From NCBI GenBank assembly GCA_030017685.1, contig JASEHH010000016.1:1-47528 (forward strand): DNA of 47,528 nucleotides. Direction: 5' to 3'. Within the stretch, counting starts at the first letter, position 1, and each line of letters opens with the position of its first letter. Under the pieces are notes generated by a model. It saw only the letters and a list, made by a program, of their open reading frames with translations. It made no database searches and was not told where the DNA came from. The translations under genes and the position numbers were made by a program. Of this stretch, positions 16,563 through 41,337 are shown one piece after another. The DNA is from Thermodesulfobacteriota bacterium. Its GTDB lineage: Bacteria; Desulfobacterota; BSN033; UBA1163.

Positions 16563-16858
16563 TCAACCTTTATGGCTTCCTTTGATCTGCACATATTGGG
16601 CGATGCCATTTCTTGTGATGAGCCCGATGATCTTATCTCTTTCTGTAATGACAATCCTTCCTTTATCCTCCTTGATCATCAATTCAAGGGCCTTCATCAC
16701 ATCGGCATCCGGAGAGACCTCCCATTTTTTGTCATGAGGCACAAAGACATTTGATACCCTCACCCTTCCCCAATCCTCTCTGGGAACCTCTTTAATTTCC
16801 TTCAGGGTGAGGATCCCGAGAAATTTGAGAACGGGAAACCCACCATATCCGAAACAAA
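16563..16858 (-). pseudogene. Remnant of a CBS-domain protein (site-2 protease-like C-terminus)
   Basis: The open frame reads from about 16858 down to a stop at 16563, with no start codon at the right place. It encodes the end of one CBS domain (GYGGFPVLKFLGILTLKEIKE) followed by a linker and a second CBS domain (ALELMIKEDKGRIVITERD, KIIGLITRNGI). The linker VPREDW joining two CBS motifs is typical of the C-terminus of M50-family membrane proteases. The sequence stops exactly where a palindrome begins at 16864, so the gene appears cut by an insertion or rearrangement. A GTG at 16763 could express the last 66 residues alone. Confidence 0.65.
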
Positions 16859-16863
16859 GGGGG

Positions 16864-16906
16864 AAAAGGGGACGGTTCTATTTAAAAAATAGAACCGTCC
16901 CCTTTT
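16864..16906. repeat. AAAAGGGGACGGTTCTATT palindrome, copy 1
   Basis: Perfect 19-bp inverted repeat with a short A-rich loop; both ends finish in AAAA/TTTT, so it can terminate transcription on either strand. Other copies are at 18144-18185 and 24647-24690. It resembles REP-type palindromes mobilised by RAYT transposases; no transposase gene is in the window. Confidence 0.8.
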
Positions 16907-16947
16907 AGATAAGTCTCTTAAGGGTTGTTCGGGAAACAATCCCTGTA

Positions 16948-18030: not shown

Positions 18031-18140
18031 TCATTGTAACCCGACGTAACTCCATTTCAAAACCATGACCTCCTCTTCGGTTAGGTCAACTTCCCAAACC
18101 ATCCGCGCCTTTCCATCCACTTGGCCAACTCCAGCACTGC
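18031..18140 (-). pseudogene. C-terminal gene remnant
   Basis: An open minus-strand frame runs from the edge of palindrome copy 2 (18144) to a TGA at 18031-18033, ending in VWEVDLTEEEVMVLKWSYVG. It has no start codon and only about 36 residues. Codon use and composition look protein-like, so it is probably the tail of a gene cut at the palindrome. The family is not recognised. Confidence 0.3.
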
Positions 18141-18143
18141 AGG

Positions 18144-18185
18144 AAAAGGGGACGGTCCTATTTAAAAATAGAACCGTCCCCTTTT
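18144..18185. repeat. AAAAGGGGACGGTTCTATT palindrome, copy 2
   Basis: Same palindrome as at 16864-16906 with one mismatch in the stem (GGTCC against GGTTC). With copy 1 it brackets the cation-exchanger gene in a segment of about 1.3 kb. Confidence 0.8.
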
Positions 18186-18231
18186 ATTGACTTTTATTGA
18201 AGTCGAGGCAACTCCGATTGAGAGTCTATCT

Positions 18232-18962: not shown

Positions 18963-20207
18963 TTAGCCCCACCGCTCGATGAGGTAGGGTTTCATCTCTT
19001 CAAAAACCTTGCAAAGGGATTCGATCTTTTCTTCAACCTCCTTTACAGAACTTTCTTGATTTTCCTTAACGAATGAAGCCACCCGGCCCAGATAGAGTGG
19101 AATCATCGACTTTAATAAATGTTCACGATGGACTGACCCCTTGTGATAGGCAATGGCAAAGTCATAAATCAAACGAACCCATAGATCTTGAGGGAAGGAA
19201 AAAGCTTCATCCGACAATCGCCCAATGGATTCAAGCCACAAGACGGTCTCTGGAAGCAATACCTTTCTCCAGATCTCCATGAGATCTTTTACGCCCAACC
19301 GGAAATTTCCGATCATCCGTCCCAGATTGACCGGGACCGGTTCAAGTCCTACCTCGTAATGAAAACCAAAAGTAGAAACGGGTTGTGATTCCTTAACCCC
19401 TTTCCAGAGAGGTTGATAATTTCCCATTAAACCATAGACCGAAGAGACAACCTGGGTGAACATCGGTCCCAGATCACTCCCGGGGTCTTTGGCATCATGG
19501 ATTTTCGCCCCCAGGTAGGATTGACATACCTTATATCCCTCCGCGATGGCGAGGGTCGTCATCCAGATATCAATCCCAAACCGGGCCACATCAGTCTCCC
19601 ACACATCCTTGGTTAAGTAGAATTTCGCCAATTTTCCGGAAAAACCGAAATCTCCTCCGATGGGCTGACGGACCCTTTTCCCGTAAAGGGTCCGAGTTAA
19701 GGGATAGACGATACTGTTCGTGATCGTTCCATCAAATTTATGGCGAGCATAAAGAGGAGCGACATAGTCAAAACCTTCTTCATAAATGGGTGTTAGTAGA
19801 AGATCCATCCATTCAGGGGTGATGGACCTCAAATCCGAATCGACCACGGCACAGGCCTTCGCATTCAGGATCTGAGTGGTTTCGAAGATGGCGCGGAAGG
19901 AACTCCCTTTTCCTGGAATCCCGTGGTAGGGAGTAACAATCTTCTGAATGGGATGAACGGGGTGAGAAGTGAGGATGGTCTTATAATCTTCAATCTGGAC
20001 CCGTCTCACCTCCTCCTGCGTCCCATCGGTTGAGCCACCATCCGAATTGATAATCACCGCTTTTGCTCCTGGAAAATATTTCGCCAGGCCAGCCATCACT
20101 GCTCTCACCACATGACCGATGGTCCGGGAGTTGTTATAACTGGGAATCCCGATCAGGATATCGGCCTCTTTAATCTCCTCTAACTGAATCTGAAATGACG
20201 GCTTCAT
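18963..20207 (-). CDS. Glycosyltransferase, glucosylglycerate synthase-like
   Basis: A 414-residue GT-A fold enzyme: DILIGIPSYNNSRTIGHVV at the N-terminus, SDGGSTDGT, metal-binding VVDSDLRS, acceptor-side GGDFGFSG, and a long helical C-terminal part. The pattern matches enzymes that add a sugar to glycerate or a glyceryl glucoside (glucosylglycerate synthase and mannosylglycerate synthase relatives). In this operon it could make glucosylglycerate directly or extend it to a di-glycosyl glycerate as in Petrotoga. Start set at ATG 20207 (AGAGGAG upstream) rather than TTG 20219. Substrate specificity is inferred from neighbours. Confidence 0.75.
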   Translation of the reverse strand: MKPSFQIQLEEIKEADILIGIPSYNNSRTIGHVVRAVMAGLAKYFPGAKAVIINSDGGSTDGTQEEVRRVQIEDYKTILTSHPVHPIQKIVTPYHGIPGKGSSFRAIFETTQILNAKACAVVDSDLRSITPEWMDLLLTPIYEEGFDYVAPLYARHKFDGTITNSIVYPLTRTLYGKRVRQPIGGDFGFSGKLAKFYLTKDVWETDVARFGIDIWMTTLAIAEGYKVCQSYLGAKIHDAKDPGSDLGPMFTQVVSSVYGLMGNYQPLWKGVKESQPVSTFGFHYEVGLEPVPVNLGRMIGNFRLGVKDLMEIWRKVLLPETVLWLESIGRLSDEAFSFPQDLWVRLIYDFAIAYHKGSVHREHLLKSMIPLYLGRVASFVKENQESSVKEVEEKIESLCKVFEEMKPYLIERWG

Positions 20208-20223
20208 CTCTCCTCTCAAAAAC

Positions 20224-21387
20224 CTATACCCAACAATCTTTTAAGATTTCGTTGACTTCCTCCTTCTTGAGGGCGCCCATCATTTTTTCCCAATCTCCCC
20301 GGAACTGGAGATACTTCGACCAACCTTCATCTCTCTTCCGAGAAAGGAGGCCCATATTATCCAAACACTCCCTCGCCTTTCCCCATTCTCCTTTGCCAAG
20401 ATAGTCAAGACTTAAAAAGAGGGAGGTGAGGATGGCTTTCGGATAGAGGGTCCACTTCAGAAAATACCCCGGATAGGGTTCGAGGTCAATCGTTGTTCCT
20501 GTTTTTACCTTTCTTCTTTCGTAAAGAAAACGTTCAATATCGCCTTTTAACTCCTCGTAAAAATAAACTCCTGTCCTTTCGGGGTGGAGATGTTTAATCC
20601 GAAGTTTTTTGTCAAACAGGAGGCAGAACCCCTGTTGGCTGGCATTGATGAGATAATCGGTATCTTCTCCCCTTGGAATGTAAGGGTCAAATGGCACCCT
20701 GCGAAAAAGAGATTGATGTAGGACGAGATTCCCACCCAAAAGCATGGGGGAAGGAACAAGTCGATCTTTTGATGAAAGGATTTTCTCCCATACCCGATTC
20801 ATCCATTTGGTCTTATTCCATAAAAACCTCCACCAGAGAGGTTGAGGAGGAAGAAGGATGGTTCCATCCGGGTTGACATAAAATCCGCCTTTCCCGCTCA
20901 CTTTCTTCCCATTCCATCTTTGGTTCAGATACTCACACGCGACCTTTAAATAGTGAGGGTCCTCCACGATTTCGTCATTGTCCATGAAGATCGCTACATC
21001 CATCGAGAGGGCCTGAGTAAGAAAGAGCCCCGTATTACGGATTTTCGAAAATCCTTTAAGATCAATAAGAGGAGAGAAACTTCTGAAACCTTTTTGATCC
21101 AGATATTTTCTCAAGGTTTTCAGGCGATAGGAGGAAAAGAGAAATATTTTTCTTGCCCGGAGATTCTGCAAGGCCTGCCTGAGGAACCCATCCATCTCAA
21201 TCCACGAGCCCTCTTCGTCTCCTCCAACCAGATCAAAACAGACAGGAAGAATGAGGGTAAAATCCTGATCTTCTAATATCTTTAGGCTTTCGGTTGCCCT
21301 TCTGGTCAAAGCGAGCCCCTCTGAATCAGGTAATTCTTCCGGGCGGTTTAATCGGAGATAGACAGGGATGATGATCGCTTTATTCAT
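20224..21387 (-). CDS. Glycosyltransferase family 2-like protein
   Basis: 387 residues beginning KAIIIPVYLRLNR, with a DxD-like metal site FMDNDEIVEDP near residue 136 and RGEDTDYL further on, followed by a helical C-terminal region. It is a soluble GT-A enzyme; donor and acceptor are unknown. It lies between the LapA-like gene and the glucosylglycerate-synthase-like gene in the same operon, so it probably decorates or synthesises a related glycoside. Confidence 0.75.
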   Translation of the reverse strand: MNKAIIIPVYLRLNRPEELPDSEGLALTRRATESLKILEDQDFTLILPVCFDLVGGDEEGSWIEMDGFLRQALQNLRARKIFLFSSYRLKTLRKYLDQKGFRSFSPLIDLKGFSKIRNTGLFLTQALSMDVAIFMDNDEIVEDPHYLKVACEYLNQRWNGKKVSGKGGFYVNPDGTILLPPQPLWWRFLWNKTKWMNRVWEKILSSKDRLVPSPMLLGGNLVLHQSLFRRVPFDPYIPRGEDTDYLINASQQGFCLLFDKKLRIKHLHPERTGVYFYEELKGDIERFLYERRKVKTGTTIDLEPYPGYFLKWTLYPKAILTSLFLSLDYLGKGEWGKARECLDNMGLLSRKRDEGWSKYLQFRGDWEKMMGALKKEEVNEILKDCWV

Positions 21388-24504: not shown

Positions 24505-24543
24505 TAAAAAAGCCGCTACCCGAACTGTGCCCCGGATAGCGGC
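24505..24543 (-). terminator. Intrinsic terminator
   Basis: Read on the minus strand: GCCGCTA (24543-24537) pairs with TAGCGGC (24518-24512), with an inner CCG/CGG, followed by TTTTTT. It would end transcripts from the receiver genes at 24.7-25.5 kb before the solute operon begins. The gap 24286-24738 holds this terminator, the palindromes at 24565-24593 and 24647-24690, and no gene. Confidence 0.75.
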
Positions 24544-24564
24544 CCGACTACCCAAATTTTACCC

Positions 24565-24593
24565 TCCAGAAAATATTTGGTATATTTTCTGGA
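24565..24593. repeat. 12-bp inverted repeat, operator-like or hairpin
   Basis: TCCAGAAAATAT and ATATTTTCTGGA are perfect inverted arms around TTGGT. It lies 22 bases before the terminator on the minus strand; it could be an RNA hairpin or a protein-binding site. Confidence 0.5.
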
Positions 24594-24646
24594 CCCCTAT
24601 TACCTTTCTTTTTGGTTCTATCTTTCTTCGTTGATCTGAAAGTTGG

Positions 24647-24690
24647 AAAAGGGGACGGTTCTATTGAAAAAATAGAGCTGTCCCCTTTTA
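24647..24690. repeat. AAAAGGGGACGGTTCTATT palindrome, copy 3
   Basis: Third copy of the palindrome at 16864 and 18144. The right arm differs at two places (GAGCTG for GAACCG), but both give G-U pairs when read on the plus strand, so the RNA stem is kept. Confidence 0.8.
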
Positions 24691-26641: not shown

Positions 26642-27517
26642 TCATTTACTCGAAATCCTGGGACTCTTGAAGTATTTCAGAAGTTCGGAATCCGATTCCA
26701 GAAGGATCGTCGTCTTCCCCTCGAACAGTTGTTCATACGTTTGGAGTCTCCTGAGAAAAGAGTAAAACTCCGTATCCTGCTCATAGGAAGAGATGTAAAT
26801 CTCTGTGGCGCGGCCATCCCCTTCGCCAAACAGCTTCATCTGCTGGCTATAGGCTTTGGCAAGAATGATCTCTTTCTCTTTGTCCGTTTCGGCTTTGATC
26901 TCCCTCGATTTCTGTTCTCCCTCGGCCCTGTACCGTTTTGCAATCCGGTGGCGTTCTGCCTGCATCCGGGCATAGACGCTCGCCTGAACCTCCTTGGGAA
27001 GGTCTGCCCGTTTGATTCGAACATCAATGATCTTGATGCCGAATCGTTTTGCCTGCTCATGGGCGTCTTTTGCCACGGTCTCGACGATCTTCTCCCTCTC
27101 TTCTCGGATGAATCCGATAAACGGGTGCTTGGCAATCTCCTGCCTCAGCCGGGCTACCAGAATATCTTCCAGGCGGGCCAGGGCCCCTGCTTCGGACCTC
27201 ACGCTCCTGTAAAATTCCAGAGGGTCTTCAATCTTCCACCGAGAGACATGATCCACGACCACCCTTTTCTTATCAAGGGTGATATACTCCACGGCGACAG
27301 CGTCCGTTGTGAGAACCCTCTTATCAAAGAGGTTTAAGGTTTGAATGAAGGGTATCTTAAAGTTCAATCCGGGTTCTTTAATGGTTCTGACATACTTTCC
27401 GAACTGGGTGATAATCGCCTGTTCTTTCTCATCAATGGTAAAGGCTGCGCCCGAGACGAGAAGAAGACCGAAAAAAATCAAAACAACAATCGCCATCCGC
27501 TTTTTGCCGTTCATCAT
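26642..27517 (-). CDS. hflC: HflC, FtsH-protease modulator
   Basis: 291 residues: N-terminal membrane anchor (about 7-27), then an SPFH/band-7 domain (FTIDEKEQAIITQFGKYVR, VDHVSRWKIEDPLEFYRSV) and a coiled coil with the typical RMQAERHRIAKRYRAEGEQ. With HflK it forms a large periplasm-facing cage around FtsH that modulates membrane-protein quality control. The hflK gene lies 3 bases upstream, so the two are co-expressed. Confidence 0.95.
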   Translation of the reverse strand: MMNGKKRMAIVVLIFFGLLLVSGAAFTIDEKEQAIITQFGKYVRTIKEPGLNFKIPFIQTLNLFDKRVLTTDAVAVEYITLDKKRVVVDHVSRWKIEDPLEFYRSVRSEAGALARLEDILVARLRQEIAKHPFIGFIREEREKIVETVAKDAHEQAKRFGIKIIDVRIKRADLPKEVQASVYARMQAERHRIAKRYRAEGEQKSREIKAETDKEKEIILAKAYSQQMKLFGEGDGRATEIYISSYEQDTEFYSFLRRLQTYEQLFEGKTTILLESDSELLKYFKSPRISSK

Positions 27518-27520
27518 GGT

Positions 27521-28594
27521 TTACTCCTTTTTGCCCTCTTTTTCTTTAATTTTGCCTTCTTTTTCTTTAATGATGACGCCTTCCTTCAATGGAAGCCATT
27601 TCAGGACCGAATTTCCCCCCTCCGGAGGGAGAATATACTTCTCCTTGCCCGGCAAAATCTTCTCCAGGGTTTCGAGATAGAGCCGTTCCCTGGTCACTTC
27701 TTTCCCTTTTCGATAGGCCCTGAGCACATCTAAAAATTTCCCGGCATCCCCCTGTGCCCGGATGACCCTCTGTTCTTTATAAGCCTCCGCAGTCCGGAGC
27801 ATCTGAACCGCTTCCCCTTTTGCTTTAGGAATGAGGTCTTCACGGTATCCCTCTGCCTCGCGCATCACGCGCTCCCGATCCTCCCAGGCTCTCACCACAT
27901 CGTGAAAAGCGTCCTTAACCTCCTCGGGCGGGTCCACTACGAGGAGTCTGGCCTCGGTGACCATCAATCCTGTCTGGTACTCGTCTAAAAGGCTTTGAAG
28001 ATATTTCTTTACCTCGTCCTGAACAATCACGCGGCCCTCGGTCATCGTGAAGTCAATCGTATTTCTTCCCACCACGCTTCGAAGGGCCACCTCCGCAGAG
28101 GATTTTAAGACCGCCTCCACATTCCTCACACGGAATAACAACTGGGAGGGATCCTTAACGATATATTGGACAAAAAGCTGGGCGTCTACGATGTTCTCAT
28201 CGCCGGTAAGCATCAGGGCTTCTTTAGGTTCGGGCCTCACCTTTCCGGTGTAGGGATCTGTCCTTAGCCCAACCTCGGCTCTTCTCACTCTGGCCAAATG
28301 GACGACATCGTGGGTCTGTATGGGCCAGGGAAGGCGATACCGGAGTCCTGGAGGGGTTCTGTCCACTTCCTTTCCAAACTGCCGGATCACTCCCTCTTCC
28401 CCTGGGCCAACCATATAGGTTCCAGACGCAAGCCAGATGATGATGGGGATGGCTAACAGAATGAAGAAAAACTTCTTCCCACCCCATCGTCTGATCTTCT
28501 CCTGAACATTTCCCAGCACCTCCTCCATTGAAGGACCGCCATAGCCTTGTCCTTCACTTCCTCTAATAAATTCATCATCTTTCCAGGCCATCAT
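27521..28594 (-). CDS. hflK: HflK, FtsH-protease modulator
   Basis: 357 residues: glycine-rich N-terminus, one membrane helix (about 40-60), SPFH domain beginning VGPGEEGVIRQFGK, and a C-terminal coiled coil (REAEGYREDLIPKAKGEA). The Lys/Glu-rich end (KEKEGKIKEKEGKKE) is a low-complexity tail. Two ATG codons (28594, 28591) follow AAAGGAG; the second has better spacing. The long upstream region (to 29.0 kb) holds a palindrome, the structured element and a sigma-54-like promoter. Confidence 0.93.
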   Translation of the reverse strand: MMAWKDDEFIRGSEGQGYGGPSMEEVLGNVQEKIRRWGGKKFFFILLAIPIIIWLASGTYMVGPGEEGVIRQFGKEVDRTPPGLRYRLPWPIQTHDVVHLARVRRAEVGLRTDPYTGKVRPEPKEALMLTGDENIVDAQLFVQYIVKDPSQLLFRVRNVEAVLKSSAEVALRSVVGRNTIDFTMTEGRVIVQDEVKKYLQSLLDEYQTGLMVTEARLLVVDPPEEVKDAFHDVVRAWEDRERVMREAEGYREDLIPKAKGEAVQMLRTAEAYKEQRVIRAQGDAGKFLDVLRAYRKGKEVTRERLYLETLEKILPGKEKYILPPEGGNSVLKWLPLKEGVIIKEKEGKIKEKEGKKE

Positions 28595-28709
28595 TTCTCC
28601 TTTCGTATAGATTCGTTATGAGAAATCACTATAATTAAGGGCTCCGTTTAACGGCAACGGTAAAAATGCCCGTTTCGTTAAATTGAAAATGACGTTTGTC
28701 GTTGTCGAA

Positions 28710-28783
28710 GCTCGTATCGAAACTCGTGAATAGAATCTGGAGGCTCGAGCGTCGTTTTTCGAGTCTCTTGCTTCGATACGAGC
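28710..28783. repeat. Long hairpin in the hflK upstream region
   Basis: GCTCGTATCGAA (28710-28721) and TTCGATACGAGC (28772-28783) pair perfectly over 12 bp, with an inner CTCGA/TCGAG pairing. On the minus strand it would lie in the 5' region of hflK. No gene was found between 28595 and 29578; that gap is described by the entries here. Confidence 0.6.
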
Positions 28784-28903
28784 ATCGTCACCCATAACCG
28801 TTTGACTATCAATCCAAACAGGCTTCGTAACCGTAACCCAAACACCCGCAGTATTTTTATGGTTTGAGGGTGACACTACCGTCATTAAAGATTACCTGAT
28901 AAT

Positions 28904-28990
28904 ATTGAAGGAGGCCTGATCAGAGAGAGTTCCCGATAAATTCACATCCATCAAGAGGAGGTGATGGCAAACTGACCTGGCCTCCTTCAA
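28904..28990 (-). ncRNA. Candidate sigma-54-driven small RNA or leader, copy 1
   Basis: A closing stem of 12-13 bp (TTGAAGGAGGCC with GGCCTCCTTCAA) surrounds an interior with GGTCAG, the hairpin CCATCA-CCTCCTCT-TGATGG, and GGGAAC...CTGATCA. The inferred sigma-54 start falls at about 28990, the first base of the stem. Related copies are at 34520-34620 and 37019-37115. No U run follows, so here it may be a leader of the hflKC transcript (about 300 bases downstream) rather than a free RNA. Inference; no match to a named RNA family was recognised. Confidence 0.5.
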
Positions 28991-29000
28991 TTCTCTTAAG

Positions 29001-29016
29001 AGCAATAAATATACCA
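29001..29016 (-). promoter_or_regulatory. Sigma-54 promoter
   Basis: On the minus strand TGGTATATTTATTGCT: GG and GC separated by exactly 10 bases, against the consensus TGGCAC-N5-TTGC. Transcription would start near 28990, directly at the structured element. The same sequence type occurs at 34629-34644. Confidence 0.6.
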
Positions 29017-29087
29017 AAGTTAAAAGGGCAAATTCTCTTTAGATTTCAATCATTGAAAAATCAATAAAAATACGAAAGGTGAAAAAG

Positions 29088-29125
29088 TGGGGCAAAACGA
29101 AACAGCCTGTGGCAAAATGGGGCAA
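29088..29125. promoter_or_regulatory. Candidate activator-binding repeats
   Basis: Three decamer-like repeats: TGGGGCAAAA (29088-29097), TGTGGCAAAA (29108-29117) and TGGGGCAA (29118-29125). They lie about 98-135 bases upstream of the inferred sigma-54 start, the normal range for enhancer-binding-protein sites. A related pair lies at 34737-34755. Confidence 0.45.
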
Positions 29126-29226
29126 TCCTTGAGTTGAACCAGAGATGAAGAGAATAGAGAGGGAGGCAGTGCAGAAATTGAATTAAAGGCGCAGGACTTC
29201 GCGCACCCACAGTCAAAAAAAACCTC

Positions 29227-29512
29227 GTAACACTTTAGCTCTTTGAAAAACGTTATATAATCCCCCTTCATCCCCCTTTGCCCGCTACGCCAGCGCATGC
29301 GCGGCGAGTCAAAAGGGGGAAATGTTTCTCCTCCCTTTAGTCTCCGACCCAGAGCACCTGCCTGCCGGTAAGCGGGGTCTCTGACCCGGAGGGTAAAGGG
29401 AGGCGCCGCCGTCCAGAGCCGCACTGCTCACGCCAAACGAAGCATTGGGACTTTGGCGCCGGACGGTGGGGAGGGATTTTAAAAAGTTTATTTCAAACAG
29501 CTAAATTATTAC
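29227..29512. repeat. Region bounded by TTTCAAAGAGCTAAAGTGTTAC-type repeats
   Basis: GTAACACTTTAGCTCTTTGAAA at 29227-29248 is the exact reverse complement of 34-55 in this window; a diverged copy in the forward direction lies at 29491-29512. Between them are small palindromes, including a CTGCCTGCCGGTA unit near 29360. No credible gene; a long open frame on the minus strand here is only repeat sequence. Confidence 0.55.
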
Positions 29513-29521
29513 AAAAACGAT

Positions 29522-29550
29522 TTGACAGAAACAAGAATCGTCGTTATTAT
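29522..29550 (+). promoter_or_regulatory. Consensus sigma-70 promoter of the toxin-antitoxin operon
   Basis: TTGACA (29522-29527), 17-base spacer, TATTAT (29545-29550), 28 bases before the toxin start codon. It is the best housekeeping-type promoter seen in the window. Confidence 0.75.
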
Positions 29551-29578
29551 ATAGGAAGAATACAATAGGCACACGTTT

Positions 29579-29857
29579 ATGAAATATTTTGACTGGAATG
29601 ATGTGAAGAATGAGAGGCTCAAGAAAGTGCGTGGTGTGTCGTTTGAACAGGTTGAATTGGCATTCGCATCAGGAGATTTGGTTGACCGGATAAAACATCC
29701 AAATCCGGCAAAATATCCGAATCAGAAAGTTTTCCTGGTAAAGATTGAAGATTATATTTATTCGGTGCCATATGTGGAGGATAACGAAAGAATATTTTTG
29801 AAAACAATAATACCAAACAGCAAAGCAACAAAGAAGTACTTAGGAGGCAAAAAATGA
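29579..29857 (+). CDS. brnT: BrnT-family toxin
   Basis: 92 residues of the BrnT/DUF497 family: FDWNDVKNERLKKVRGVSFEQVELAFAS at the N-terminus, then VFLVKIEDYIYSVPYV and IFLKTIIPNSKATKKYL. BrnT toxins are RelE-like ribonucleases that stop translation. The gene is the first of a two-gene operon with a ribbon-helix-helix antitoxin; the ATGA overlap (29854-29857) couples them. The usual core (RxIS) reads VRVxSEV-like here (VRGVSFEQV), so catalytic residues should be checked. Confidence 0.85.
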   Translation: MKYFDWNDVKNERLKKVRGVSFEQVELAFASGDLVDRIKHPNPAKYPNQKVFLVKIEDYIYSVPYVEDNERIFLKTIIPNSKATKKYLGGKK

Positions 29858-30132
29858 AAAAAGCAGCATATTTGGATAAAGACGAGAGGGAATTGGCAAA
29901 ATCACTTGAAAATGAAGAATGGGTTTCTGACCTCACTAAAAAAGAAAAAAAGCAATACGAGGAATATGCCCGCTATAGCCTGAACAAACAGAAGCGGATC
30001 AATATCCGAATGACTGAACGAGATTTAAAGAAAATTCGTGCGAAAGCAGTTGAAGAGGGCATACCGTATCAATCCCTTATCTCAATGTTGATTCATAAAT
30101 ACAATGAGGGGAAAGTATCGGTTAATCGATAA
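29854..30132 (+). CDS. Ribbon-helix-helix antitoxin (BrnA/CopG-like)
   Basis: 92 residues: a charged N-terminal half (DERELAKSLENEEWVSDLTKKEKKQYEEYA) and a C-terminal RHH DNA-binding fold, INIRMTERDLKKIRAKAVEEGIPYQSLISMLIHKY. The protein should bind and neutralise the toxin and repress the operon promoter. The 196 bases after it (30133-30328) hold no gene. Confidence 0.85.
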   Translation: MKKAAYLDKDERELAKSLENEEWVSDLTKKEKKQYEEYARYSLNKQKRINIRMTERDLKKIRAKAVEEGIPYQSLISMLIHKYNEGKVSVNR

Positions 30133-30328
30133 ACAGCCTAATATCGCTCAACCAGACGCGCAAGAATGGCGCGCAGGTTAGCTCGGTCGTTGAACCTGTA
30201 GAAAAAGTCAATCTCGCCCGAATCTGGCGAGTTGGAAGAAAATGCAACCTCTCAGGATGCTCTGTATCCGCCGGGTTTGAGATCGCTTCTTCTATCTTAG
30301 TTGGCTTTGGAAAAGAGGAAAGGAGGGA

Positions 30329-31558
30329 TTAAAGAAAGATAATTCTCTCTCCTGGATGGGAGAGAACGTGGAACAGAAGGAGATATCGCCTTAAATTTCG
30401 AGTGATCAGGAATTCTTCTTTCACAAATTCATGGCCATATTCACCCAATTTCTTTGCGACCTCGGGATGGCTCAGAAGATATCGAATTTGATAGGCTGCC
30501 CCCTCAATAGAGTAGACGAGAGCCCCTGTGAATTTAGGAATGATTTGGGCGGGAATCCCACCAACAGCACTCCCGATCACGGGTTTCTTTTTCCACAATG
30601 CTTCTGATACCGTTAAACCAAATCCTTCCCTTATCGATTTTTGAAGGATAATGCTCGAAGCTCTTTGAAGTGCATTAATTTCAAGAGAACTGGTCGGGGG
30701 GAGAAGGAGAATATGGATATCTGGATCACCTTCAGCCTCGTTCCGTGCCTCACTCAGGACCGCCTCACCCTCAGGATCATCACTTGCCCCTCCTCCTGCC
30801 AAGACTAACTGGCAATCGATATACCGCTTTGTCATTCTATACGCCTTAATCACTCCAATAGGGTCTTTGAGACGATCAAATCTGGAGATCTGGGTGATAA
30901 TGGGTTTGTCTCGCGGAATATGAAGGCGTTCCAATACTTGATCGATGAATTCGGGTTCAAGTTCCCTATTTTTATCTGATAAAGGATCGATGGAGGGAAA
31001 GAATAAGAATTGGGGGATGGGCAATCGTTTCGAAAATCGAGGAGAAGAGAAGAGGGCTACATCATACTTCTCTACATATCCCTTTAGAAACTCCCAAACC
31101 TCTTCATTTGGATTTGAAATATCGATGTGGCATCTCCAAACCCATTTCGCCTGGGTTCGATCTCTCATTTCAATATAGGCAATAGGCTGGGGATCGTGGA
31201 TGACGACAACATCCTGATCAAAATTGGTATTTCTTAAATTCTCCCTGTTTACTTCCAGAAAGACTTCTTTCATTCTGGGCGTGAGGGAAAGTTGTTCTCC
31301 ATGGAGGGCATTGTGGATTTTTTTCGTTACCTCAAAGAAATCCTCCCCCCCTTTGATCACCTCCCATTGAGTTGAGACACCGAGTTCATTTAATAAGGGG
31401 ACAAGTCGACTTAAGATCTCTGCCACTCCACCGCCCACCGCCGTGGAGTTGACCATTTTTATCTTTCTTTCCCTTAATCCCTCTGCCAGAAGGTAGAGTT
31501 CTTCTAAGGTTTGCGCTCCAACAATCGGCTCATAATCCATTAAACGGACGGACGACAT
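30329..31558 (-). CDS. treT: Trehalose synthase TreT-like glycosyltransferase (GT4)
   Basis: 409 residues, GT-B fold. N-terminal VNSTAVGGGVAEIL is the signature of TreT-type trehalose glycosyltransferring synthases, which join NDP-glucose and glucose. The C-terminal half has SRFDRLKDPIGVI and the GT4 EGFGLTVSEALWK motif. It overlaps the DUF5752-type gene by 19 bases and ends the four-gene operon otsA-otsB-DUF5752-treT, so two independent trehalose routes are encoded together. Confidence 0.9.
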   Translation of the reverse strand: MSSVRLMDYEPIVGAQTLEELYLLAEGLRERKIKMVNSTAVGGGVAEILSRLVPLLNELGVSTQWEVIKGGEDFFEVTKKIHNALHGEQLSLTPRMKEVFLEVNRENLRNTNFDQDVVVIHDPQPIAYIEMRDRTQAKWVWRCHIDISNPNEEVWEFLKGYVEKYDVALFSSPRFSKRLPIPQFLFFPSIDPLSDKNRELEPEFIDQVLERLHIPRDKPIITQISRFDRLKDPIGVIKAYRMTKRYIDCQLVLAGGGASDDPEGEAVLSEARNEAEGDPDIHILLLPPTSSLEINALQRASSIILQKSIREGFGLTVSEALWKKKPVIGSAVGGIPAQIIPKFTGALVYSIEGAAYQIRYLLSHPEVAKKLGEYGHEFVKEEFLITRNLRRYLLLFHVLSHPGERIIFL

Positions 31559-32208
31559 GGAGACTTCATCTCCTCCTCAACATACTGCAGAATCTTTTTT
31601 CGGATTTCCTCCAGGGAGTGGAGATAAATATCAATGCCTTCGATTCGTTGCGCCGGCCTCTCCATTCCTAAACTATTCCGAAACCAATTCGAGAAGTCAT
31701 TGGTATGGATGCCTAATCGAAGCCTTGCTTCGATTAAGTGATAATGGATGGATCGAATTCCAATCTTCCCAATAACTTGATAGAAATCCTCTAAATTCCA
31801 TGCGATATAATGCGTAGGCATCACAATGCTGACCGATTGACAGAAGAAAAAAGGAGTCTTCCCCTGTCGATTTCCACTCTGAGGATGTTTGCGAAGATGA
31901 TCATCGATGATCTGAATCATGGACTCCCTTAAAGCCCGAATGGTTGTAAAATCTCTAACATCCAGAGAGCCTAATCTTTCTGCCAGGGCCTCCTCGTCCA
32001 AGGAATTGGAAATCCATTGCGCAAAATCAGAATGATATTTATCAATAGCAAAGTGGCGATCCCGGTAACTTTGAAAGACATGATAAAAAATTGCCGACCC
32101 AGTGCATCGCTTTAATAATGCTACCAGCTCTTCTAAGTTATTTGCCTTTTCACCAGTCAATTCGACCAGATTGGATGAGGTATAAAAATAGAAAGGATTA
32201 CCTTCCAT
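31540..32208 (-). CDS. DUF5752-type protein of the trehalose operon
   Basis: 222 residues, no signal peptide or membrane segment. It starts PFYFYTSSNLVELTGEKA and contains two similar halves, each with a 'FYHVFQSYRDRHF...DFAQWISNSL' or 'SIHYHLIEARLRLG...DFSNWFRNSL' pattern, which suggests an internal duplication. It is known mainly as a companion of TreT-like glycosyltransferases; biochemical function is unknown. It begins 5 bases after otsB. Confidence 0.75.
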   Translation of the reverse strand: MEGNPFYFYTSSNLVELTGEKANNLEELVALLKRCTGSAIFYHVFQSYRDRHFAIDKYHSDFAQWISNSLDEEALAERLGSLDVRDFTTIRALRESMIQIIDDHLRKHPQSGNRQGKTPFFFCQSVSIVMPTHYIAWNLEDFYQVIGKIGIRSIHYHLIEARLRLGIHTNDFSNWFRNSLGMERPAQRIEGIDIYLHSLEEIRKKILQYVEEEMKSPCRPSV

Positions 32209-32213: not shown

Positions 32214-32990
32214 TTAAAACACCTTTTTAATGATCTTTAGAAATTGATAAACTTCAGATGGATCTTTTACATAGTACTTCGCCAAAGAATTGCTCAGGAA
32301 GCCTACAAATATTGTGATACCCCTTTTTTTGAGGGCCTTAAAGGCGTCTTCATCCGTTTGATCATCTCCGATGTAAATTGGAAGCACTCCGTCTTGATTG
32401 ACCTGATCCAATAGCCCTAAGACTGCTGTTCCCTTATTTCCCGTTGATTGGGGCCTGATTTCAAATACCATCTTTCCATGCCCCAAACAAAGGGGTACCA
32501 TAGAGTCCTTTATCTCTTGCTTCAACGCCATAAAAATAGGAGGAACCTGTCTTAGATCGACATTTCGATAATGAATGGCAAGGATCCATCCCTTATCTTC
32601 TATGAGGACCCCATTAACATCTTTCAACTGGTTATTTAATCGGTCCCGAATCCTTCCAAGTTCAGGCACAACTTTTTCTGGAACGAGCGTCTTTGTCCCT
32701 CGTTTAGGGGTAAAGATCTCCAATCCATGATTCCCGACATAATAAACCCCCTTCAGCCCCACCAATTCCCGAATATCTTTAAGGGATCTTCCGCTCACGA
32801 TGGCCAGAAGGAATTTGGGACTTTTCTTTAAGGCTAAGAGCAGGGCTCTTGTCTCTTTGGAGAGAGTGGCTTTCTCCGGATGGGAGACAATGGGGGTAAG
32901 AGTTCCGTCATAGTCTAAAAAGAAAAAAATACGGTTAGCGGTCTTAAATCGTGCCAGAATTTTTTCTGTTTGATCGAAAAGATAATCCAT
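32214..32990 (-). CDS. otsB: Trehalose-6-phosphate phosphatase
   Basis: HAD-IIB phosphatase, 258 residues from ATG 32990: motif I FLDYDGTLTPI, motif II VSGRS, GNHGLEIF, Lys in TGNKGTAV, motif IV IYIGDDQTDEDAF. Releases trehalose from trehalose-6-phosphate made by the upstream OtsA. ATG 32990 lies 8 bases after the otsA stop; an in-frame TTG at 33041 would add 17 residues overlapping otsA and has no better RBS. Confidence 0.93.
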   Translation of the reverse strand: MDYLFDQTEKILARFKTANRIFFFLDYDGTLTPIVSHPEKATLSKETRALLLALKKSPKFLLAIVSGRSLKDIRELVGLKGVYYVGNHGLEIFTPKRGTKTLVPEKVVPELGRIRDRLNNQLKDVNGVLIEDKGWILAIHYRNVDLRQVPPIFMALKQEIKDSMVPLCLGHGKMVFEIRPQSTGNKGTAVLGLLDQVNQDGVLPIYIGDDQTDEDAFKALKKRGITIFVGFLSNSLAKYYVKDPSEVYQFLKIIKKVF

Positions 32991-32998
32991 TAATTTTT

Positions 32999-34462
32999 CT
33001 ATGAAATCTGGATTGTTTTCGCAAGGATTTGGTCGGCCCAACGATAAATATTTCTTTCCCGAGCGATTTCCCTTAGCTTCTTCATCCTCCGAGAAACCTC
33101 CTCAGGCGGCATCTCCATAGCCTCCTTAATCGTTTGAGCAAATTCATCCACCGCATAAGGATTGACAAGGAGGGCTTCATTCAACTCTCGTGCAGCGCCT
33201 GTAAACCTTGAGAGAATGAGGACGCCATCGGAATCGGTCTTGGCCGCAATATATTCCTTTGCCACCAGATTCATTCCGTCGTGAAGGGAACTGACAATAC
33301 AGAAACTGGACATCTTATAGAAGGCAAGCATAGAAAGGAAAGGGATATGCTCTCGGAGAAAGAGGATCGGGGACCAGTGCTCTGTTCGATGCTTCCAATT
33401 AATCCTTTCCACCGATTCGTCAATCTCATCGTTGATTTGCTTATAACTTGGAATATGTTCCCGGCTGGGTGCGCCCAATTGGATAAAGACAAAACGTTTT
33501 CGATATTCAGGATTTTGATCTAAAAAGAGATCAATGGCTCTAAACTTCTCGGGAATCCCTTTGGTATAATCGAGGCGGTCCACCCCCACCCCTATGATTT
33601 TATCAAAGAGATGGTATTTGGTTTTTAACCTCTTCGTCTCCTCTTCCACTTCTCTCTTCCTTGTGCTTTCGTCAATGGCATCGAAATCGATACTGATGGG
33701 GAAGTGACGGACATAAGTCGTCTTACCCTTATAGACGATTGAAGACCTCTCACGGTCAGGTCTGGCCTCCAATTCTCGATCCACTGTATCAATAAAATTG
33801 TTACAATGGTAACGGATATGAAAACCCAGCAGATTATTGCCCAAGAGGCCCTCAAGGAGTTCTTTTTTCCAGGGACAAATTCGAAATGCTTCCGGATTGG
33901 GCCAAGGGATGTGCCAGAACTGAACCGTCAAGGCATCTGGTCTTTTCTCCTTGATGATCCGGGGGAGCAATGCAAGATGATAATCTTGAATAAAGATGAG
34001 GGGTTTTTGACTGCCGATTTCTTCCAAAATTTTTTCGGCAAAGAGCTGGTTTACCTTTTCATAATATTCCCAATCGGATGCCCTGAAAACAGGGCGGGTA
34101 TAAGCAATATGGCAGAGGGGCCAGAGGGCCTCATTCGCAAAGCCGTAATAATATCCCTCCTCCTCATTTTTCGAAAGCCAAACCCTTTTTAATTCATATT
34201 GTGGATCTTCGGGAGGAACCTCCACTTTTTGGTTGTTGTCCACGGTCTCGCGGTCCGCCGTACCACTCCCGTGTGCGATCCAAATTCCTCCGCAAGCTTG
34301 CATCATCGGATCTAATGCAATCGTGAGCCCGCTGGCTGGCCGAATGCATTCAATCTGGTCTTCCTTCCAGTTATGAATATAGGGCTCTCTATTGGAGACG
34401 ATAAAAAGTTGATAATCCTTCAGCTTCTCTTTAATGACCCGCTGAAAATGCTTCTTTTTCAT
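32999..34462 (-). CDS. otsA: Trehalose-6-phosphate synthase
   Basis: 487-residue GT20 enzyme that joins UDP- or ADP-glucose to glucose-6-phosphate. Landmarks: IVSNREPYIH, SGLTIALDP, QDYHLALLP, FWHIPWPNPEAFR, GVDRLDYTKGIPEK, and SSLHDGMNLVAKEY with the nucleotide-sugar site. The gene is full length, first of the otsA-otsB-DUF5752-treT operon. Fifty-eight bases upstream begins the second structured element with a sigma-54-type promoter, so stress or nitrogen-type control is possible. Confidence 0.95.
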   Translation of the reverse strand: MKKKHFQRVIKEKLKDYQLFIVSNREPYIHNWKEDQIECIRPASGLTIALDPMMQACGGIWIAHGSGTADRETVDNNQKVEVPPEDPQYELKRVWLSKNEEEGYYYGFANEALWPLCHIAYTRPVFRASDWEYYEKVNQLFAEKILEEIGSQKPLIFIQDYHLALLPRIIKEKRPDALTVQFWHIPWPNPEAFRICPWKKELLEGLLGNNLLGFHIRYHCNNFIDTVDRELEARPDRERSSIVYKGKTTYVRHFPISIDFDAIDESTRKREVEEETKRLKTKYHLFDKIIGVGVDRLDYTKGIPEKFRAIDLFLDQNPEYRKRFVFIQLGAPSREHIPSYKQINDEIDESVERINWKHRTEHWSPILFLREHIPFLSMLAFYKMSSFCIVSSLHDGMNLVAKEYIAAKTDSDGVLILSRFTGAARELNEALLVNPYAVDEFAQTIKEAMEMPPEEVSRRMKKLREIARERNIYRWADQILAKTIQIS

Positions 34463-34519
34463 AGAACGATCCTTTTTTAGTCCTTTTTAAATACCTCTCC
34501 TCTCATGGAATCGAAAAAG

Positions 34520-34620
34520 ATTGAAGGAGGCTTTAGATCAGCGAGAAGGGGTTCCCATAATCTTCATATCCATCCTCAATCAGAGGAAGTTAAGCAACCT
34601 GATCCAGCCTCCCTCATTAC
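34520..34620 (-). ncRNA. Candidate sigma-54-driven small RNA or leader, copy 2
   Basis: On the minus strand a closing stem (GGAGGCT with AGCCTCC, a C-G to U-A change relative to copy 1 that keeps pairing) and a second stem GATCAG/CTGATC enclose CCTC/GAGG and GGGAACC. After the closing stem comes CAATCTTTTTC, a weak terminator tail, so it could end as a RNA of about 100 nt or read through into otsA. The gap 34463-34848 contains this element, its promoter and repeats, and no gene. Confidence 0.5.
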
Positions 34621-34628
34621 CAGGAATG

Positions 34629-34644
34629 AGCAAAAAGCATACCA
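34629..34644 (-). promoter_or_regulatory. Sigma-54 promoter
   Basis: Minus strand TGGTATGCTTTTTGCT, with GG and GC exactly 10 bases apart. The inferred start, near 34618, is at the edge of the structured element, as at copy 1. Confidence 0.6.
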
Positions 34645-34736
34645 AAGGCAAGAGAACAAATTTCCCTTTTATTTTCATCGGTTCAGACCCTGATGAGAAA
34701 TGGAGGCCCTCTAAAAAGGGGAAAAATGAGACACAT

Positions 34737-34755
34737 TGTGGCAAATTGGGTCAAT
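34737..34755. promoter_or_regulatory. Candidate activator-binding repeats
   Basis: TGTGGCAAAT followed by TGGGTCAAT, matching TGTGGCAAAA and TGGGGCAAT at 29108-29126. The distance to the inferred start (about 119 bases) equals that of copy 1 (about 118). Confidence 0.45.
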
Positions 34756-36140: not shown

Positions 36141-37088
36141 GTGAGGATGAAGAAATCCCTTTATTTATCCCTTTTCGCCTTAACAAATCTTTTTCTAATC
36201 GTACTATCCAATCGTCCAATGATGGCTGCAGATGGTGCTTTTACTTACCGTTTACCCATTCGACCCTATGGGATTGATCTTCAAGCAGTGACGGTAGTCG
36301 GTGCCCCGTGCACTTATACAGTACAAAAGGAAGATACCCTTCTGGATATTGCTCGAAATTTTGATCTTGGCTTTTCAGAAATTCAACTCCTATATAAAGA
36401 CATCGACCCATGGGTTCCTCCCGAGGGATTGGAATTAATCATTCCAACCTTCTGGGTATTACCCGAAGGGAAGTGGGACGGAATAGTAATCAATATTCCT
36501 GAGATGAGGCTTTATCTGTTTTTTAAAAAGATATCCATGGTCAAAACATTTCCAATCGGAATAGGGGTCACTGAAAATTTCACTCCAGTAGGACGGTTTC
36601 ATATTAAAGAGAAGAGAGTCTCTCCCACCTGGCATATTCCTCTTTCCCTTCGTGAGAAATATGAAGGGAGAAAATCTATTCCTCCAGGGCCGGAAAACCC
36701 TCTCGGCTCTCACTGGCTGGGTCTGTCCATAAGAGGGTATGGAATTCATGGCACCAATTTTCCATGGGCCGTTGGGCGATTGGTCACTCACGGGTGTATC
36801 CGTCTTTACCCAGAAGATATACCGCATCTTTATTCCACGGTATCCATTGGAACCCCGGTAGAGATCATCTATGAGCCTGTCAAAATAGGTTTTATAGAAG
36901 GGCGGATTTTCATTGAAGTCCATGAGGACATTTATCATCGAATCCCCGATTTTTTTCAGTATACCCTTCAAAAAATGGAGAAAAAAGGGATCAAAAACCT
37001 CGTTGATTTAGAAAAAATAAAGGAGGCCATTGATCAGAGAAGGGGGGTTCCCATCGATATTACATCCGATTTCGACCATGGGAGGTGA
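36141..37088 (+). CDS. LysM L,D-transpeptidase (YkuD/ErfK type)
   Basis: 315 residues: signal peptide (about 1-29), LysM peptidoglycan-binding domain (about 57-101, YTVQKEDTLLDIARNFDLG), then a YkuD catalytic domain with His203 (GIHGT), His217 and nucleophile Cys219 in THGCIRL. This is the layout of E. coli ErfK/YbiS/YcfS, which attach Braun lipoprotein to peptidoglycan by its C-terminal lysine. Three lipoproteins ending in Lys-Lys are encoded right next to it on the other strand. The C-terminal 20 residues (KEAIDQRRGVPIDIT) and stop overlap the third structured element. GTG 36141 or ATG 36147 may be the start; neither has a clear RBS. Confidence 0.92.
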   Translation: MRMKKSLYLSLFALTNLFLIVLSNRPMMAADGAFTYRLPIRPYGIDLQAVTVVGAPCTYTVQKEDTLLDIARNFDLGFSEIQLLYKDIDPWVPPEGLELIIPTFWVLPEGKWDGIVINIPEMRLYLFFKKISMVKTFPIGIGVTENFTPVGRFHIKEKRVSPTWHIPLSLREKYEGRKSIPPGPENPLGSHWLGLSIRGYGIHGTNFPWAVGRLVTHGCIRLYPEDIPHLYSTVSIGTPVEIIYEPVKIGFIEGRIFIEVHEDIYHRIPDFFQYTLQKMEKKGIKNLVDLEKIKEAIDQRRGVPIDITSDFDHGR

Positions 37089-37115
37089 AGACCGTCTGAC
37101 CAAGCCTCCTTCAAT
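37019..37115 (-). ncRNA. Structured element, copy 3 (3' end of the lipoprotein transcript)
   Basis: Same order of blocks as the copies at 28.9 and 34.5 kb: GAAGGAGGC, GGTCAG, TCACCTCC, GGATGT, GATGGGAAC, CTGATCA and GGCCTCCTT, followed on the minus strand by TTTATTTTTTC, a good terminator tail. It starts about 5 bases after the stop codon of the first lipoprotein gene and on the plus strand encodes the L,D-transpeptidase C-terminus. No sigma-54 promoter precedes it here. It is probably a shared bidirectional terminator or a 3'-derived RNA. Confidence 0.45.
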
Positions 37116-37119
37116 GCAT

Positions 37120-37635
37120 CTATTTCTTCAACTTTTTCTCAAATATTGCCTCTGATTTCTTTGCCGCTTCTTCTGCCTTTTGGGCAGCTAATTCTGCCCG
37201 GTTAGCAGCTGTCTCAGCTCTGTTCGCCGAGTCTTCCGCTTTTTTAGCAGCCGATTCCGCTTTTGACGCTGCTATTTCAGCCTTTGATGCTGCCGCCTCG
37301 GCCTTAGATGCTCCCGTAGTCGCAATCATTGCGGCACTCCCTGCTTTCTCGGCAGAAGATTCAGCTCTTTTCGCCGCATCCCCTGATCGAATGGCAGACT
37401 CCTCAGCCTTTCTCCCAGCACCCTCTGCTTTCATTGCAGCCGTTTCGGCTCGCTTAATAGTTACCTCTGCTGTAGCAGTAGAGGCTTCGGCCTTTTTTAA
37501 GGCATCCTGAGCTGTCTTCATCGCAGCCTCAGCCATGGATTTTGCCTCACGGACCTCTTTTGTGGTGGCGCAGCTTGAAAGCATGATCCCAAGAATGAAG
37601 GCCATTCCAATAAAAACCACTGTCCTTATTTTCAT
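37120..37635 (-). CDS. Alanine-zipper lipoprotein 1 (Lpp-like)
   Basis: 171 residues. Signal peptide with lipobox MLSSC (Cys22), then about 140 residues of Ala/Lys/Glu heptads (KAEAAASKAEIAASKAESA) predicted as a continuous trimeric coiled coil, ending FEKKLKK. The C-terminal lysines resemble the peptidoglycan-linked Lys of Braun lipoprotein. It is about three times longer than E. coli Lpp and could span a wider periplasm. Strong RBS (AAGGAGGTGAAG). Confidence 0.85.
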   Translation of the reverse strand: MKIRTVVFIGMAFILGIMLSSCATTKEVREAKSMAEAAMKTAQDALKKAEASTATAEVTIKRAETAAMKAEGAGRKAEESAIRSGDAAKRAESSAEKAGSAAMIATTGASKAEAAASKAEIAASKAESAAKKAEDSANRAETAANRAELAAQKAEEAAKKSEAIFEKKLKK

Positions 37636-38412: not shown

Positions 38413-39039
38413 TTACTTGGATAAAATGATGAATGCAGCCCTTCGATTTTTTGCCCATGCCTCCTCACGATGACCAGGGTCTAAGGGTCTTTCCTCTCCA
38501 TAGCTGATTGTAGAGATACGATCTCCAGGAAGGCCCAGAGAAAGGAGATACCTTTTCGTGCTGTTCGCCCGTCTTTCTCCAAGAGCAAGGTTGTATTCAA
38601 TGGTTCCTCTTTCATCACAATGCCCTTCAATCTGAATCTTTACATTGGGATACTTCATCAATAAAGCTGCATTCTCCTTGAGAATTGCTGTATCCCCTGG
38701 GCGAATATCATATTTGTCAAAATCGAAATGAATCATCTTCAGCATTTTGCTTTCGAAGACCTCTCCTTCAATTCCTGGGTTCTTCTTGGCAACTAAACTC
38801 TTTTCGAACTCTTTCTTGGCCAGTTCTCTCTTTGCCTCTTCTTCTTTTATTCGAGCCAATTCCTTCGCTTCTTTTTCCCTACGTTCAGATTCACGCCTTT
38901 CCGCTTTCTCTCTTTCTATTGCCATCTCTTCTGTCTTTTTTACCGATGGCTCCTCTTTAATAACTGTCTTCTTTGGACATCCTGTCAAAATGAGACCCAA
39001 GCAGAGGATGAGGATGACGATGAAACCCTTTCTAATCAT
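38413..39039 (-). CDS. pal: Peptidoglycan-associated lipoprotein (Pal/OmpA-like)
   Basis: 208 residues: lipobox LILTGC (Cys21), a long charged helical linker (about 40-90; EREKAERRESERREKEAK) and a C-terminal OmpA-like domain (about 100-208) with HFDFDKYDIRP, GHCDERGTIEYN and NRRAAFIIL, which binds diaminopimelate in peptidoglycan non-covalently. It heads the lipoprotein array. No tol genes are adjacent. RBS AAGGAGG. Confidence 0.93.
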   Translation of the reverse strand: MIRKGFIVILILCLGLILTGCPKKTVIKEEPSVKKTEEMAIEREKAERRESERREKEAKELARIKEEEAKRELAKKEFEKSLVAKKNPGIEGEVFESKMLKMIHFDFDKYDIRPGDTAILKENAALLMKYPNVKIQIEGHCDERGTIEYNLALGERRANSTKRYLLSLGLPGDRISTISYGEERPLDPGHREEAWAKNRRAAFIILSK

Positions 39040-41198: not shown

Positions 41199-41337
41199 TT
41201 GATGGAATCGTAAAAAGTCGTCATTCCCGTGAAAACGGGAATCCAGAGAATTCTAACTACTTTAAAATACTGGATTCCTGCTTGCGCAGGAATGACTGAT
41301 AATGGGCTTCTTTTCAGACTTTTTATGAAACCATCAA
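41199..41337. mobile_element. MITE-like element with terminal inverted repeats
   Basis: TTGATGGAATCGTAAAAAGTC (41199-41219) is inverted at 41317-41337 with 18 of 21 matches. Inside are two common palindromes (CATTCCCGtgaaaaCGGGAATCCAG and CTGGATTCCTGcttgCGCAGGAATGAC). Length 139 bp, no coding capacity. The stop codon of the histidine kinase lies in the right terminal repeat, so insertion may have changed its C-terminus. Confidence 0.75.

Follow-up and report, generated by a model that had tools for sequence, protein, structure and literature searches.

The window, by which is meant the whole stretch of 47,528 nucleotides analyzed here (positions 1 to 47,528 of contig JASEHH010000016.1, from a Thermodesulfobacteriota bacterium), carries three copies of a structured RNA of ~95–105 nt per copy, which can be regarded with little doubt as a real and conserved member of a sigma-54 regulon. 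As far as genome sequences go, this RNA is so far known from one deltaproteobacterial family, itself little known and uncultured. The identification of a conserved RNA element is strong, and the mechanism proposed further below is one that we infer. All three copies lie on the minus strand within 8.2 kb, in agreement with the initial annotation, which had been made by eye and had also counted three:

28902-28994, minus strand: structured RNA copy 1, before hflKC, with arms at 28904-28923 / 28972-28991
34518-34621, minus strand: structured RNA copy 2, before otsA, preceded by a separate operator and sigma-54 box; T-run behind it
37014-37118, minus strand: structured RNA copy 3, immediately after the stop codon of a gene for an alanine-zipper lipoprotein, with a T-run behind it

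Copy 3 overlaps the 3' end of a convergent YkuD-domain open reading frame, and no sigma-54 box is found within 400 nt upstream of it. The region before hflK had been interpreted as a regulated small RNA or leader and not a random repeat, and the arrangement of activator site, sigma-54 promoter and conserved structured RNA is supported by the recurrence of operator, promoter spacing, stem and fold in related genomes, the comparison by which that reading was to stand or fall.

Conservation was evaluated with a covariance model built from nine copies, which match by construction; copy 1 is one of these nine and scores 100.3 bits (E 2.5e-21). The model finds 16 sense copies in 10 of the 17 genomes of the family, at 50.8–100.3 bits and with one to four copies per genome, and the seven copies outside the model-building set score 50.8–88.2 bits; the element is thus conserved in related genomes. 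In the genome to which the window belongs all three counted copies lie inside the window, and the five further matches at E up to 10 comprise two antisense mirrors and three weak matches, the best with E 0.012 (C111); antisense matches are the mirror of the stem and were excluded from the copy count. A search at class level gave matches in 10 of 23 genomes, all ten within the family, and in a sample of the phylum 8 of 395 genomes have a match, all again in the family (under stricter filters, by which weak matches are lost). When named genomes were scanned with a pattern, 12 stretches were returned and seven of them were confirmed by the covariance model; the other five (in Eisenbacteria, Bacillota, Polyangiaceae, Treponema and Oscillospiraceae) give no model match at E up to 10 and were rejected as chance. 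The seven are hosted by Syntrophaceae bacterium UBA1163 (two copies), UBA2188, UBA2208, Deltaproteobacteria bacterium CG03_land_8_20_14_0_80_45_14 and isolate CROMO_BS_46_3 (two copies), all of them metagenome-assembled genomes; in the NCBI taxonomy UBA1163 belongs to Thermodesulfobacteriota, Syntrophales, and the CG03 genome is listed under unclassified Deltaproteobacteria.

A refined model (R2, E up to 1) applied to the 23 class genomes gave no convincing extra copy among the matches read by eye: one in G015 (1.1e-4) is an unrelated hairpin, one on contig C261 of G006 (7.8e-4) apparently lies within coding sequence, and one in G002 (0.12) was likewise discarded. No Rfam family, GlmY and GlmZ included, reaches threshold at gathering level on the element in the window or at the 16 loci. 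With Rfam at E up to 1 over 28800-29300, a plant miRNA model scores on the element below threshold (20.9 bits, the cut-off being 90) and was rejected. Neither a plasmid collection (query 28600-29400) nor a phage collection (query 28880-29135) returned a match, and no short open frame inside the element is kept across the copies, as judged by eye. No published description of the RNA was found among titles and the beginnings of abstracts; its novelty rests on this literature searching and on Rfam.

The region of copy 1 folds at -39.6 kcal/mol (z -4.05, with 0 of 200 shuffles as low) into a P1 of 13 bp plus a P2, and the closing stem of 12–13 bp formed by its inverted arms, described earlier by eye, is thereby confirmed. 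Across the family the RNA consists of a long closing stem P1 (GAAGGAGGC / GCCUCCUUC, 11 modelled pairs), a stem P2 (GGUCAG / CUGAUC), a hairpin P3 (UCACcUCC / GGAuGUGA) with the conserved UCACCUCC, and a weak P4. Five closely related short-type copies (W_hflK, G7_hfl, G7_ompA, G6 and G5) and eleven long-type copies show identical architecture when folded separately, and P1 has a pairing probability of 0.82–1.00 in all 16. In an alignment of 16 distinct rows that was fitted to the model, which biases pair counts upward, and whose related rows easily exceed such shuffles, 91.0% of cells pair, against 89.7% in shuffles (5/500 as high) and 38–53% in slid controls; two-sided changes occur in 9 cells (4.0 +/- 1.7 when shuffled, 2/500 as high) and at 6 pairs (3.2 +/- 1.3, 20/500 as high), and the covariation score is 0.189 (0.163 +/- 0.010, 3/500 as high). 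Further pair types in these 16 rows are not above the shuffles (104/500 as high). The covariation support for the fold is modest for these two reasons and, mainly, because P1 barely varies.

P1 and P2 together have 20 G.U pairs and 4 A.C mismatches, which favors an RNA of the sense strand; in P3 the ratio is reversed (11 A.C mismatches, 4 G.U pairs) because four copies break inner pairs. The antisense strand folds equally well or better in 7 of the 16 copies, so that energy alone gives no direction, which comes instead from orientation and the G.U pairs. With gaps counted against, the majority letter is held by 88–91% of rows in the paired columns of P1–P3, by 76% in those of P4 and by 61% in unpaired columns. 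The sequence UCACCUCC, identical in its letters to the anti-Shine-Dalgarno end of 16S rRNA, is retained in G009 and G012 despite poor P3 pairing, a hint that the letters themselves have a role; its probability of being unpaired averages 0.40 (range 0.13–0.83 over the 16 copies), so that on average it is more than half paired.

Upstream of copies 1 and 2 lie the following predicted control elements:

29089-29120, minus strand: operator 1 (predicted upstream activating sequence), CCATTTTGCCACA-GGC-TGTTTC-GTTTTGCCCC, a pattern conserved in the family
29001-29016, minus strand: sigma-54 promoter 1 (TGGTAT-N5-TTGCT), TGGTATATTTATTGCT, with 0 mismatches to TGGYRYN5TTGCW
34718-34749, minus strand: operator 2, a predicted match to the operator pattern
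34629-34644, minus strand: sigma-54 promoter 2, TGGTATGCTTTTTGCT, an exact match to TGGYRYN5TTGCW, before copy 2

On the minus strand the order is therefore operator 1, sigma-54 box, element and hflK. The sigma-54 promoter that had been proposed before the element holds without a mismatch, and both promoters have the sigma-54 form with GG at -24, GC at -12 and 10 bp between. A third exact match to TGGYRYN5TTGCW in the window lies on the plus strand (12945-12960), and with up to one mismatch the window contains 9 matches, against 4.88 expected. Counting from the C of TTGC as -12 places +1 at ~28990, within one base of the stem start at 28991. The earlier suggestion that transcription starts on the first base of the stem is thus correct for the window and is not general, since the predicted start falls at the stem in 6 of the 11 promoter-linked copies and 7–41 nt before the modelled element in the other five. 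The upstream repeats that accompanied this suggestion, TGGGGCAAAA (29088-29097) and TGTGGCAAAA (29108-29117), both written as plus-strand letters, survive as the two ends of one conserved operator and not as independent repeats: the second does not recur as a repeat at other operator sites, and as words the two occur 6 times in the window with up to one mismatch, against 6.14 expected, which is no excess.

The operator is bipartite, 32 bp long and centered on an ACA-N3-TGT dyad. Searched as a pattern of 28 bases with up to two mismatches, it is found at 21 sites in 10 of the 17 family genomes, and its reversed control at none. At 19 of the 21 sites a sigma-54 box lies 99–104 bp downstream, measured from the start of the pattern to the start of the box, where ~0.0004 would be expected per site; the two sites with no box at that spacing are G009:C57 and G014:C203:3988. 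Of the 19 operator/sigma-54 promoters 11 (spacing 99–102 bp) lead into the RNA and 8 do not, and the regulon can therefore do without the RNA. One promoter of the latter kind serves hflK in G013 (identified by BLAST), and hflK in G016, recognized by eye from its opening codons, is probably arranged likewise. Eleven of the 16 RNA copies stand behind an operator-linked sigma-54 promoter, and the five with no operator or sigma-54 box nearby are the two 3' copies described below, both copies of G012 and the otsA copy of G014. At one mismatch the operator occurs in 11 of the 395 phylum genomes (8 in the family, and 3 outside it with single sites), with one match for the control. RNA and operator share nine genomes (co-occurrence p 0.004); G012 has the RNA only and G015 the operator only.

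A candidate for the protein that binds the operator is encoded further upstream in the window:

39831-41183, minus strand: sigma-54 activator gene (receiver, sigma-54 activation domain, Fis-type HTH), the presumed operator binder
41334-42812, minus strand: histidine kinase gene (HAMP, HisKA, HATPase_c), the presumed partner of the activator
42846-44273: pyruvate kinase open reading frame

The NCBIfam models nearest to the activator are AtoC, NtrC and ZraR, all below cut-off. An orthologue (E up to 1e-150, at least 69% identity) is present in 12 of the 17 family genomes; all ten genomes with the operator have the gene and none of the five genomes without the gene has the operator (Fisher p 0.003), and G002 and G010 have the gene with neither operator nor RNA. 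In G005, G006, G013, G016 and G011:C67 the operator lies directly behind the activator gene. Activator and operator are linked by this co-occurrence, and the activator presumably binds the operator. Both features that a sigma-54 promoter under an enhancer-binding protein should have, an operator at fixed distance and a co-occurring activator gene, were thus found. For the RNA itself the association is not significant (activator gene in 9 of 10 genomes with the RNA and 3 of 7 others, p 0.10), and G012 has the RNA and no close activator gene.

The genes that the copies adjoin in the window are the following:

26642-27517, minus strand: second Band_7/SPFH gene, taken as hflC from its position and domain
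27521-28594, minus strand: hflK, with its start codon 310 nt behind copy 1
30329-31558, minus strand: TreT-like gene
31540-32208, minus strand: DUF5752 gene, flanked by the trehalose phosphatase gene and the TreT-like gene
32214-33041, minus strand: trehalose phosphatase (otsB)
32999-34462, minus strand: otsA, trehalose-6-phosphate synthase of glycosyltransferase family 20, with its start codon 55 nt behind copy 2
37120-37635, minus strand: alanine-zipper lipoprotein gene, with its stop codon directly before copy 3
38413-39039, minus strand: Pal/OmpA-like lipoprotein gene, whose homologue in G007 is preceded by an operator-promoter-RNA cassette

The position before hflKC that had been assigned to the element is right for copy 1 and is not specific to hflKC, as other copies in the family stand before otsA, ompA/Pal-like genes, DUF5752-treT, a gpgS-like gene or a response-regulator gene, and two follow a lipoprotein gene. 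Also found around the copies are a HAD gene (glucosylglycerate), a mechanosensitive-channel-like gene, a D-alanyl-D-alanine carboxypeptidase and an L,D-transpeptidase. We take the trehalose, glucosylglycerate, channel, hflKC, lipoprotein and wall genes to serve osmoadaptation and envelope functions, and from a gene set of this type the signal of the regulon is therefore probably osmotic or envelope stress.

Some further features of this island were recorded. DUF5752, which stands directly behind the RNA in G016 and G013, is a candidate partner in trehalose synthesis. In a glucosylglycerate-like cluster on the minus strand, the gene at 18963-20219 has a weak mannosylglycerate-synthase-like match and that at 20224-21387 has no Pfam match; both are conserved behind the gpgS-like gene in G005, G009, G011 and G013. 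An RNA of the nhaA-I (Li+/Na+ riboswitch) class at 24534-24596, minus strand (45.2 bits), is followed by a terminator-like hairpin with a T-run and by a small open reading frame, the nearest identified downstream gene being gpgS-like. It resembles the deltaproteobacterial variants of this class that bear terminators and may have Na+ as their ligand, according to the available text of PMC9646797, which also reports an occasional link to trehalose-6-phosphate synthase. A near-perfect hairpin of 52 nt (AAAAGGGGACGGTTCTATTT...), unlike the element, occurs in three copies (16856-16907, 18135-18186 and 24639-24690).

The placement of the copies bears on what the RNA might do. Twelve of the 16 precede a start codon by 27–310 nt, nine of these by 27–63 nt, and two (in G007 and G006) lie near a contig edge with no downstream gene recognized. 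Two copies, copy 3 of the window and one at the same place in G007, are found 3' of the lipoprotein gene with the next same-strand gene ~0.9 kb on, which makes a leader role unlikely there. The orientation is that of the adjacent gene in 14 of the 16 and that of the copy's own promoter in the other two. By script, 8 of 16 copies have at least four consecutive T no further than 10 nt behind P1, and a terminal T-run is present in 11 of 16 when three are added by eye in which the script anchor had slid into the run; it is absent in five, all short-type. The stem closes ~50–65 nt, which is unusual for a rho-independent terminator. A gene for hfq is present in all 17 family genomes, whether the RNA is present or not.

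The cassette also appears to move. A block of ~1.4 kb (28887-30273 of the window, compared with 11441-12851 of L036), which combines a BrnT/BrnA-like pair with the operator, promoter and RNA, lies before hflK in the window; in G007 it is flanked by the activator gene on one side and the ompA-like gene on the other. Its main pieces are 92% and 98% identical, homology stops ~15 bp behind the RNA, and the BrnT/BrnA-like proteins are 100% identical between the window and G007. The block stands at different genes in the two genomes; thus operator, promoter and RNA can travel as a unit.

These observations can be assembled into a tentative model, to which we give slightly less than even weight, of a sigma-54-driven RNA that is ended in part at its own U-run as an Hfq-type small RNA and otherwise read through into stress genes. 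The local pair of histidine kinase and sigma-54 activator would switch on the sigma-54 promoters from which most copies of the RNA are made, probably under osmotic or envelope stress, with the activator binding the 32-bp operator ~100 bp upstream of the sigma-54 promoter. The first product of these promoters would be the RNA, in which P1 closes and, in most copies, the U-run comes next. Part of the transcripts would end at this U-run as a stable small RNA, bound by Hfq at its U-tail, and the remaining transcripts would continue into the protective genes; from the 3' copy an identical product would arise at the end of the lipoprotein operon. By pairing with ribosome-binding sites, the conserved UCACCUCC may then reduce the translation of target mRNAs. 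Action in trans as a small RNA is somewhat less likely than not. The 3' copies and the variable spacing to start codons favor an RNA that acts as its own unit, and the many leader positions favor a role in cis; a terminator-ended RNA with read-through reconciles both.

A purely cis-acting leader is nearly as likely as the small-RNA model, and is to be taken seriously while falling well short of probable. P1 at or near the 5' end would then protect the mRNA from decay or tune its translation, for which the 5' stem-loop of E. coli ompA mRNA is a precedent; placed 3', it would protect or terminate the mRNA that lies upstream of it. This explanation accommodates the 12 copies at 27–310 nt before a start codon, the predicted start at the stem in 6 of 11 promoter-linked copies, the formation of P1 predicted in 16 of 16 and the short-type copies without a T-run. 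It is harder to reconcile with the fact that the letters of P1 are conserved and UCACCUCC is kept despite a bad P3 (G009, G012), as a plain stabilizer needs pairing only; with the absence of the element between an operator/sigma-54 promoter and hflK in G013 and, as judged from the opening codons of the gene, in G016; and with the five of 11 promoter-linked copies whose predicted transcript begins 7–41 nt before the element.

An extension of the small-RNA model, which we consider speculative and unlikely, is that the RNA is a regulon-wide read-out: several promoters of the stress regulon, together with the 3' end of another operon in the island, would release the same RNA, its dose would sum the activity of the regulon, and through the anti-Shine-Dalgarno-like UCACCUCC it would throttle other mRNAs, with the protective genes expressed by read-through.

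A riboswitch or attenuator for an ion or osmolyte seems a poor prospect; its ligand would decide whether P1 plus U-run forms (stop) or the 5' GGAGG pairs instead with the inner CCUCC (go). The multi-branched fold with its closing stem, the T-run that often stands behind, the osmoadaptation-type gene set and the nhaA-I RNA with its terminator-like hairpin in the same region speak in its favor. However, P1 is long and forms at 0.82–1.00 without a ligand, and the unpaired positions that would make up the pocket are the least conserved (61%, compared with 88–91% in P1–P3). In G005 and G009, moreover, the arms of P1 are changed and the inner CCUCC is unchanged. The alternative pairing of the 5' arm was rejected as a kinetic switch, since it is favored in the truncated chain for only 1 of the 16 copies (W_hflK; mean 0.10).

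A mobile repeat is disfavored: that the P1 arms are, at the level of DNA, a protein site or a MITE/REP-like repeat with no RNA function is very improbable, even though the letters of the arms are conserved and the ~1.4 kb block precedes hflK in the window and the ompA-like gene in G007. MITE and REP elements are dispersed in many copies and both orientations, but here 14 of 16 copies are oriented with the adjacent gene and the other two with their own promoter, each genome has 1–4 copies, and those of the genome studied lie only within the window; the inner pairing and the G.U bias of P1 and P2 are retained, and arms at least 48 nt apart are long for one protein site. Also disfavored, and with next to no probability left, is a sponge in which the conserved GGAUGU (9/16 copies), similar to the CsrA-binding consensus, titrates CsrA/RsmA. 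It was rejected on the distribution of CsrA (PF02599), which was found in 5 of the 17 genomes of the family; of the 10 genomes with the RNA a single one is among these, which contradicts a sponge in the other nine, unless nine incomplete assemblies all miss the gene.

To return to the RNA as a product of the sigma-54 regulon, its release from each regulon promoter would couple the stress regulon to translation elsewhere; if it acts in cis only, the regulon would share a leader module that is carried along with its promoter. Under either reading the operator, promoter, RNA and candidate activator are now mapped, and an RNA family without a match in Rfam 15 is added, tied to a likely activator, an operator and a gene set in an uncultured deltaproteobacterial group.

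Among known systems, the nhaA-I (Li+-I) riboswitch, with its terminator-bearing variants in Deltaproteobacteria, shares the ion and osmotic context as presented in the accessible part of PMC9646797; the nhaA-I RNA of the window is separate from the element, and cmscan shows no relation between them. GlmY of enterobacteria, as described in the available portion of PMC6075780, likewise has a sigma-54 promoter with upstream activating sequences and a kinase / sigma-54 activator pair for envelope homeostasis, QseE/QseF, beside the RNA gene. However, the QseF site consensus in that portion is TGT-N12-ACA, compared with ACA-N3-TGT inside the 32-bp operator here, and GlmY stands alone upstream of qseEGF, whereas the present RNA is repeated before several operons. 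The rhizobial small RNAs alpha-r14 / NfeR1 likewise have a conserved anti-Shine-Dalgarno motif in a structured RNA; in the text available of PMC10746234 the nfeR1 promoter is without a sigma-54 signature and is repressed by NtrC, and alpha-r14 has three hairpins, each with an unpaired CCUCCUCCC, a hallmark absent from the element, which has one UCACCUCC, partly paired, in a closed fold. CJnc230 of Campylobacter jejuni, in the sections available of PMC11187230, differs in its two stem-loops flanking a 12-nt single-stranded stretch, in its association with flagella genes and in its lineage. This RpoN-dependent RNA of 98 nt is reported to bind ribosome-binding sites, and thereby repress translation, by means of a region that contains a putative anti-Shine-Dalgarno motif, and its position downstream of an RpoN-dependent gene is comparable to that of copy 3 (PMC11187230).
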